From contig OX422195.1 in assembly GCA_949130485.1 (NCBI GenBank), forward strand, positions 250,881 to 314,880: 64,000 nucleotides of DNA, read 5' to 3'. Numbering within the stretch: the first letter of the stretch is position 1; each line of letters begins with the position of its first letter. Positions 3,839 through 9,444 of the stretch are shown piece after piece. The notes under the pieces were generated by a model. That model did not search any database. It saw only the letters and a list, made by a program, of their open reading frames with translations, and had not been told where the DNA came from. A program made the position numbers and the translations under genes. The DNA is from Agelas oroides. Its lineage: Eukaryota; Porifera; Demospongiae; Agelasida; Agelasidae.

Positions 3839-8006
<4,168 letters not shown>

Positions 8007-8122
8007 TGCAACGTTGCAACGTGGGCGATATGTTAAGGGACTTTCCCCAATGTGTACTTAGTTTAGCTACAAGTGCAATCTGATTGGTCAAAAATGACGT
8101 AATACGTAAAAATAGTTTGGTA

Positions 8123-8130
8123 TTGCATCA
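8123..8130 (+). promoter_or_regulatory. CARE/AARE-type site (TTGCATCA)
   Basis: Exact match to the C/EBP-ATF composite core that ATF4-C/EBP dimers bind in vertebrate stress genes. It lies 400 bp upstream of an ATF4-like start, which would allow autoregulation. One 8-mer can occur by chance. Confidence 0.4.
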
Positions 8131-8287
8131 GCCTCTCAAGCTCAGTAGTTATAATGCGGAGTGACCAGTTTTTAGCCAGTTGCGTGGAATGTCCTCTCTG
8201 TGATAACAGCCTGACGCGATCGAAGCAGTTGTTAGAATTTAAGCATAGTTACGAGTGATCTGCTTCTACCATCTGTATAGTTGAAAG

Positions 8288-8299
8288 ATGGCACAGTAG
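8288..8299 (+). promoter_or_regulatory. uORF1 of ATF4-like mRNA (three codons plus stop)
   Basis: ATG GCA CAG TAG. A three-codon uORF in this position corresponds in size and order to the re-initiation-permissive uORF1 of vertebrate ATF4 mRNA. The next uORF starts 67 nt after its stop. Confidence 0.6.
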
Positions 8300-8366
8300 A
8301 TCCCAGGGAACGGGTGCTTTCGCGCTGCCGCCCAGTCGCCTAACACTACAGTCTAATTTGTTCATC

Positions 8367-8563
8367 ATGGGGTAAGAGCAAATGCTTTAAGCAATAGATC
8401 TTTGAAAGCCATTATGTCCATAATTTCACTGTCTCGATGCTGCGTTCTTTTCTTTCTCCCCTACAGGTGTTCCCACTTAAAATCCAATTTAATGTCCTTG
8501 TTTGGACACGAGACAAAGCATCATGAACGGTTCTCCGAGCCCTCCTTTGGCTGTTCCGGATAG
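8367..8563 (+). promoter_or_regulatory. uORF2 of ATF4-like mRNA, spliced, overlapping the main start
   Basis: ATG at 8367, donor after 8371, acceptor before 8467 (95-nt intron), reading on to TAG at 8561-8563: 33 codons. It overlaps the main ORF (start 8523) by 41 nt in a different frame, as the inhibitory uORF2 of vertebrate ATF4 does. A second in-frame ATG lies at 8492. If the intron were retained, the 8367 ATG would read ATG GGG TAA, but an ATG at 8414 would open into the same frame, so an overlapping uORF exists in either form. Confidence 0.65.
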
Positions 8564-9444
8564 CCAGTCCTCTTACTGCAGTGATGTCGCCGCCCTGTCT
8601 GGGTATGGCTTCCCTCTGTTCGAAGAGCCCTTAGGGTTGATGAAGGCCACTAGGCCGACGCCACTGGAAGGAGACACTGCCCAGCTACTGGGAGCCAGTT
8701 TTGGTACGTTCAGTGCTTACCTAACACAATATTTACGTGTTTGACTGGGCACACTTGATTCTTTTACCTACAGATCTCCTTCCTGATGCAAACTACCTGG
8801 CTCTTGAGCAGGACTGGATGACACAATTACAGCCCATCCCCCTGCTGACCCCCGACGAGCAAGCTGGAGATATAATGAGTGTCTTCTACACAACTAGCTC
8901 TCAGGGTTTCTCCGGTCTTCCAACCCCCGACTCCAGCCTTCCCCCTTCCCCTGACTCCACTTACTTTTCCGAGGACGCTGAGTTCAATGAGATGATGTCC
9001 TCCTTCCTTGATGAAGGGGAGGCCCCCCAGTTCTCTCCCAATCAGCTGGGCACTCCAGTCACCCCTCTGTCATACTCCTATCCACAGCAGTATGACTCTG
9101 AGCTGCCGATAGCACCAGTTGGAAATAATCCTGGTAGTATTCGAGACATGCTTAAGGTAGAACCAGAATCTCCCCCTTCCTCACTGGCTTTCTCTGATGA
9201 GAAGCCACGTCCCAAACGAAGATTGACTCAGTCAGTGCGCAAAGAACGAAAAAAACAGCAGAATAAGTCGGCAGCGCTACGATATAGGCAAAGAAAGAAA
9301 GGGGAAAAGGAAGACTCACAGGTCAAATTGCAGGATCTAGAGCTAAAGAACTCTGAACTGAAGGAGAGGGTGAAGTCTCTTCATAATGAAATTGACTATT
9401 TGAAGCAGCTTTGGTTGGAGGTACGTACGCAAGGCAAAGCGTAG
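8523..9444 (+). CDS. ATF4: ATF4/ATF5-like bZIP transcription factor
   Basis: Two coding exons, 8523-8703 and 8774-9444 (stop 9442-9444), giving 283 residues. The start is the first ATG in the main frame; an upstream in-frame TTG is not used. The N-terminal two thirds is acidic and Ser/Pro-rich, typical of an activation domain, with a TPDSS-LPPSPDS cluster resembling phosphodegron context. The bZIP occupies roughly residues 208-275: a basic region with N-K-S-A-A-L-R-Y-R-Q-R-K-K (from residue 224; ATF4 has the closely similar NKTAATRYRQKKR), then a leucine zipper, then a short L-W-L-E-V-R tail matching the ATF4 C-terminus. ATF4 is the integrated-stress-response activator, induced at translation through uORFs; matching uORFs are present here. 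ATF4 versus ATF5 cannot be separated by eye; it may be pro-orthologous to both. Convergent with VPS35L. Confidence 0.88.

Follow-up and report, generated by a model that had tools for sequence, protein, structure and literature searches.

The window analysed here, a 64,000-nucleotide stretch of DNA, contains an orthologue of ATF4, very probably from a demosponge, and its leader likely operates in the manner of the ATF4 switch of other animals. A three-codon upstream open reading frame (uORF1) is followed by a second one (uORF2) that overlaps the main coding sequence out of frame. A demosponge case would mean either that the ATF4 switch goes back to the base of animals or that it originated repeatedly. 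Less expected is the neighbourhood of the gene: ATF4 shares its promoter with ecdysoneless (ECD), and this promoter can be aligned in a second species. The ATF4–ECD pair may represent an early feedback circuit within the integrated stress response, and one that is open to test.

The ATF4 gene and its host

The main ORF lies on the plus strand in two coding parts, 8523-8703 and 8774-9444, separated by an intron (8704-8773) across which both the frame and the homology run on; spliced, it has 283 codons. The second part holds the bZIP domain (PF00170, 7.9e-11), and the best PDB match of the latter is ATF-4 (1e-10), the next family being ATF-2 (9.7e-5). A 10-sequence profile, scored against the 7998 candidates with the most shared words, matched 64 proteins. 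Seven of the rows carry a source name, and three names are informative: ATF-5 (Clarias), ATF4b (Anarrhichthys) and activating transcription factor of chaperone-like (Ornithodoros). Judged by homology, the window gene is an ATF4/5 orthologue; the ATF4-like identity proposed in the first-pass annotation is borne out by the PDB match and by these names. All 13 metazoan bZIP families predate the sponge/eumetazoan divergence, according to the available part of PMC4736632. The same genome encodes a diverged second ATF4-like bZIP (L027, G000:C1:10842698-10842895), which matches protein P0007 at 2.0e-6 and in PDB is closest to ATF-2 (5.8e-4), followed by ATF-4 (1.7e-3).

Just upstream of 8493 a stop closes the main frame, and from there to the ORF the sole AUG is 8523. 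Among 65 ATF4-like proteins, we chose 18 relatives with a readable N-terminus (17 because they contain [AP]VPD, one by eye), and the start methionine is aligned in all of them; in P0007, P0032 and P0038 the aligned methionine is internal, with more in-frame sequence ahead. The contigs that encode P0007, P0024, P0026 and P0027 resemble transcripts, as the reading frame continues through the position of the intron. Position 8523 is very likely the real main start on these alignments. Since the start methionine is aligned throughout, the 33-codon uORF2 truly overlaps the main ORF. In the overlapped stretch (8523-8563) the residues VPD are invariant in 18 of the 18 relatives; we set this invariance aside as evidence for dual coding because 17 of these proteins had been picked for [AP]VPD.

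Near the end of the gene, TACGTACG at 9422-9429 is a four-base tandem duplication that shifts the ATF4 frame. The tail reads RTQGKA and a stop in the window versus RKAKRRKQ in P0001 and P0003, and a tail of the RKAKRRKQ type persists in another frame. The duplication may be a polymorphism or an assembly error.

The nature of the host can be read from contig C141 (22,436 bp), which is a mitochondrial genome. Pfam recognizes cox2, atp6, cox3, cob and ATP synthase subunit c (PF00137, 2.6e-13), and further frames read as putative atp8, nad4, nad6, nad3, nad4L, nad1 and cox1. TGA encodes tryptophan, and ARAGORN finds 23 tRNA genes over three pieces of the contig. Mitochondrial atp9 together with a gene order like that of C141 is a demosponge hallmark. 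From its mitochondrial genome the host is very probably a demosponge, in agreement with the sponge-grade animal that had been supposed. The cox1 frame of C141 is broken by a putative intron-type ORF (L023 3931-6733).

The genome also encodes eIF2alpha (PF07541, 1.7e-5), the Ser51 site being held by an upstream exon, and a GCN2-type gene recognized by its C-terminal domain (PF12745, 2.1e-10). Part of the GCN2 locus consists of N letters, and the kinase domain was not seen in the stretches that were read; by eye, the exons upstream of the C-terminal domain resemble other parts of GCN2. A published study reportedly deals with the unfolded protein response in a calcareous sponge.

The leader and its counterparts in other animals

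All the elements listed by the first-pass annotation are present in the sequence, with exact coordinates, although its inventory of uORFs missed the upstream AUGs (uAUGs) at 8154 and 8189 and an in-frame AUG at 8492. On the plus strand, uORF1 (ATGGCACAGTAG, 8288-8299) encodes MAQ followed by a stop, with A at -3 and G at +4: the short first uORF (two to four codons) in good context that characterizes an ATF4-type leader is found in the genomic sequence. The uORF2 AUG follows the uORF1 stop after 67 nt, again with A at -3 and G at +4. The frame of uORF2 comprises 33 codons plus stop and is divided between 8367-8371 (ATGGG) and 8467-8563 by a predicted leader intron of 95 nt (8372-8466, GTAAGA...CCTACAG). 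It overlaps the main ORF out of frame by 41 nt, which supplies, likewise in genomic sequence, the overlapping second uORF in good context of an ATF4-type leader. After splicing, the distance from the uORF2 AUG to the main AUG is 61 nt. The main AUG itself has A at -3 and A at +4.

Splice sites were scored with an ad hoc matrix based on the general metazoan consensus and ranked within the window: the donor at 8372 is in the top 1.8% of GTs and the acceptor at 8466 in the top 0.17% of AGs. In unspliced RNA, AUG 8414 opens a frame of 49 codons that runs to the same stop at 8563, and an overlap of the uORF2 type with the main ORF persists through AUGs 8414 and 8492. The absence of the leader intron, together with that of any upstream-initiated overlap, had been put forward as a reason to reject the switch; we discarded the condition on the intron, as the overlap persists without it.

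The AUG at 8492 is in the frame of uORF2 and in weak context. Further upstream on the plus strand there are two extra uORFs: one of 34 codons (8154-8258), which would be part of the message only if transcription starts far enough upstream, and an open frame of four codons, MSSL and a stop (8189-8203). A TATAAT at 8150-8155 is overlapped by the former; if it is used, transcription would start near 8175-8185 and uAUG 8154 would lie outside the message. The predicted secondary structure of the leader at 8180-8371 is no better than that of shuffles (z 0.47). In silico folding of the spliced leader pairs 8360-8371 (the uORF2 AUG region) with 8467-8528 (the main AUG region), probably by chance.

Paired ATF4 uORFs have been described in insects, a mite, Aplysia, Hydra and vertebrates, with a uORF1 of 2-3 residues followed by an overlapping uORF2 (Hiraishi et al. 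2014, PMC4176352). The pair is claimed there to be conserved across all metazoa except nematoda; sponge, Porifera, Amphimedon and Trichoplax are absent from the main text of that article. The sponge leader resembles that of mammalian ATF4, in which a uORF1 of three codons plus stop precedes a uORF2 in good context that overlaps out of frame (PMC12839439, available part). Human uORF2 is longer, with 60 codons, 27 of them overlapping by the count of the same article, versus 33 plus stop and 41 nt in the sponge. Unlike the mammalian leader, the sponge leader has a second in-frame AUG in uORF2 and extra uAUGs upstream. The available text of PMC4176352 reports a comparable extra upstream uORF and second in-frame uORF2 AUG in arthropods; this second AUG is in weak context in the sponge and in strong context in insects, a difference that counts against the switch.

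Other uORF-controlled ATF4-type bZIP genes are induced when initiation is impaired: C. elegans atf-4 (PMC8857226) and Drosophila crc and Xrp1 (PMC12816580, PMC13268129). Their control was tested with reporters. Both crc and one isoform of Xrp1 have a uORF2 that extends into the main ORF (PMC12816580, PMC13268129, available parts). No publication on sponge ATF4 uORFs was among the matches listed in our literature search, subscription papers and preprints lying outside its scope.

The first-pass annotation would have dated the switch to the base of animals, provided that the organism is a sponge-grade animal. The dating is less new than it appeared, the Hydra pair having been published (PMC4176352, available part). 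The sponge ATF4 leader is probably a modest extension of the age of the known paired-uORF switch, and would take it to the animal root if it is ancestral. Sponges might instead have gained a working switch by a parallel origin, without inheriting it from the animal ancestor, which we think unlikely. The encoded peptides differ from those of other phyla (here we have the word of the first-pass annotation alone), short uORFs arise easily in shuffled sequence, and the fungal GCN4 leader is analogous, according to the available part of PMC4176352; however, the gene, the order of the uORFs and their similar sizes all agree with Hydra and bilaterians.

Proposed operation of the leader

The leader is probably a working ATF4-type switch, as its sequence and the gene downstream of it suggest. 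Ribosomes would translate the three-codon uORF1 and then resume scanning. With plentiful ternary complex they would re-initiate at uORF2 (AUG 8367, backed by 8492 in frame) and terminate within the main ORF, yielding little ATF4. Once eIF2alpha is phosphorylated at Ser51, re-loading would be slow, uORF2 would be bypassed and the main AUG at 8523 would be used. uORF2 would be doubly guarded by its two AUGs, 8367 and 8492, and the overlap would be kept, through 8414 and 8492, even if the leader intron is retained. We infer the transcription start upstream of 8288, the 8371/8467 splice, re-initiation and the response to stress. In addition to the weak context of AUG 8492, the uAUGs at 8154 and 8189 count against this scheme, as they could disturb the order of uORFs. 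Delayed re-initiation is under revision in mammals too (PMC12839439, available part). A pattern search for relatives' DNA gave 88 and 147 matches in genome and viral contigs, none of them confirmed, and the relatives' protein records contain no leader sequence at the uORFs.

To gauge how readily the arrangement arises by chance, three starts were assumed (8131, 8180 and 8260), and for each of them the spliced leader was put through 20,000 dinucleotide shuffles. An overlapping out-of-frame uORF of any kind appears in 43-50% of shuffles, and a uORF of at most five codons ahead of an overlap in 15-29%. The bare arrangement, exactly three codons and then an overlap, is found in 3.3-7.6%; it is not rare by itself, a point on which the first-pass annotation overstated its case. 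When strong context is required of the short uORF as well as of the overlapping one, a criterion adopted once the sequence was known, ~0.2% of shuffles qualify. Taken by itself the arrangement is suggestive, and it is the downstream gene that gives it weight.

The ease with which overlapping uORFs arise, and the smaller share of shuffles with a short uORF ahead of them, speak for another scheme in which the overlapping uORF2 alone represses, stress relieves repression by leaky scanning past 8367 and 8492, and uORF1 is incidental. A single uORF can reportedly be enough for stress resistance in human genes. We nevertheless doubt this scheme and would be rather surprised if it held: in its size and its strong context uORF1 is like the ATF4 uORF1s known to permit re-initiation, and the strong context at 8367 disfavours leaky scanning. 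Re-initiation after uORF1 is the reading that we prefer. That the uORFs arose by chance and regulate nothing, or that a start further downstream leaves them out of the mature leader, is quite improbable despite the frequency of the bare arrangement in shuffles, given the two strong uAUG contexts found together, the strong predicted intron inside the leader, and the orthology with ATF4, the leaders of which are regulatory wherever studied among the papers cited.

A promoter shared with ecdysoneless

The divergent neighbour of ATF4 is ECD. Its first coding exon (ECD/SGT1) is on the minus strand at 7812-8006, with the start codon at 8004-8006 and an approximate inner end. This exon alone matches profile positions 1-57 of PF07093 with an E value of 0.032, and three exon pieces joined by eye match the same family with an E value of 5.6e-35. 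The two genes are arranged head-to-head: the start codons of ECD (8006) and uORF1 (8288) are 282 bases apart.

Three candidate sites lie between them on the plus strand: a reverse CCAAT box (ATTGG, 8083-8087), a CRE/ATF-like TGACGTAA (8095-8102) and TTGCATCA (8123-8130), a C/EBP-ATF composite that is CARE-like. Within the window TGACGTAA occurs twice against 0.67 expected, and TTGCATCA twice against 2.6 expected, that is, without over-representation. The other copy of TTGCATCA (8784-8791, minus strand) falls within the ATF4 coding exon. By themselves, such motifs would be weak evidence.

A comparison with the ECD homologue P0018 adds to this. The protein is 77% identical across 59% of the ECD query, and its 90-residue N-terminal extension reads antisense through the ATF4–ECD intergenic region. 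A codon-aware alignment to window positions 8231-8020 scored 57.0, whereas 60 mononucleotide shuffles averaged 17.7 and reached 26.0 at most. Counting compatible letters, which is not identity, is itself favoured by the alignment and leaves window-gap columns uncounted, the promoter core at 8080-8135 agrees at 50 of 56 positions (4 mismatches, 2 gaps), the leader side at 79 of 96 (14 gaps) and the ECD side at 43 of 60 (15 gaps). Eight of eight positions are compatible for the CCAAT box (8081-8088, 10 bits) and likewise for TGACGTAA and TTGCATCA (12 bits each); a CARE-like site is present in the promoter, and the sequence of one relative is compatible with it, though not necessarily identical. 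The uAUGs at 8154 and 8189 are also compatible with P0018, the alignment with which ends short of uORF1.

The longest contig is given as 10667 for both the ECD homologue P0017 and the ATF4 homologue P0003, which suggests ATF4–ECD linkage in a second species; in this comparison of nine ECD homologues, with the longest contig visible for each record, the other eight gave no agreement. The first-pass annotation had noted CARE-like and CRE-like sites upstream of ATF4 and proposed that the gene could regulate itself. The sites are indeed present, and compatible with the P0018 promoter. The idea of self-regulation must reckon with a promoter that the divergent ECD gene shares.

ECD acts as a brake on PERK in mammals: p-PERK and p-eIF2alpha rise when it is depleted, and its overexpression lowers p-PERK, p-eIF2alpha and ATF4 (PMC5574048, available part). 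ECD mRNA goes up on ER stress, less so in PERK-knockout cells, while ECD protein falls (same source). The orthologue of mammalian ECD adjoins ATF4 here, a linkage of which the available part of PMC5574048 makes no mention. We tentatively propose, as a possibility with the balance clearly against it, that ATF4 and ECD form a conserved head-to-head pair in demosponges under one CCAAT/CRE/CARE promoter. Stress would raise both mRNAs; ATF4 would be translated at once via the uORF switch, and ECD on recovery of translation, after which the pathway would be shut off. If this is true, a single promoter would drive both an effector and its off-switch, and the integrated stress response would here show feedback in an early form.

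A CARE check on asparagine synthetase found no first exon visible in the two stretches examined. The Asn_synthase domain (PF00733) has 19 matches, all on one contig of the same genome (G000:C7, ~3.36-3.90 Mb and 6.31 Mb), many of them clustered and some with stop codons; it looks as if the gene had multiplied there.
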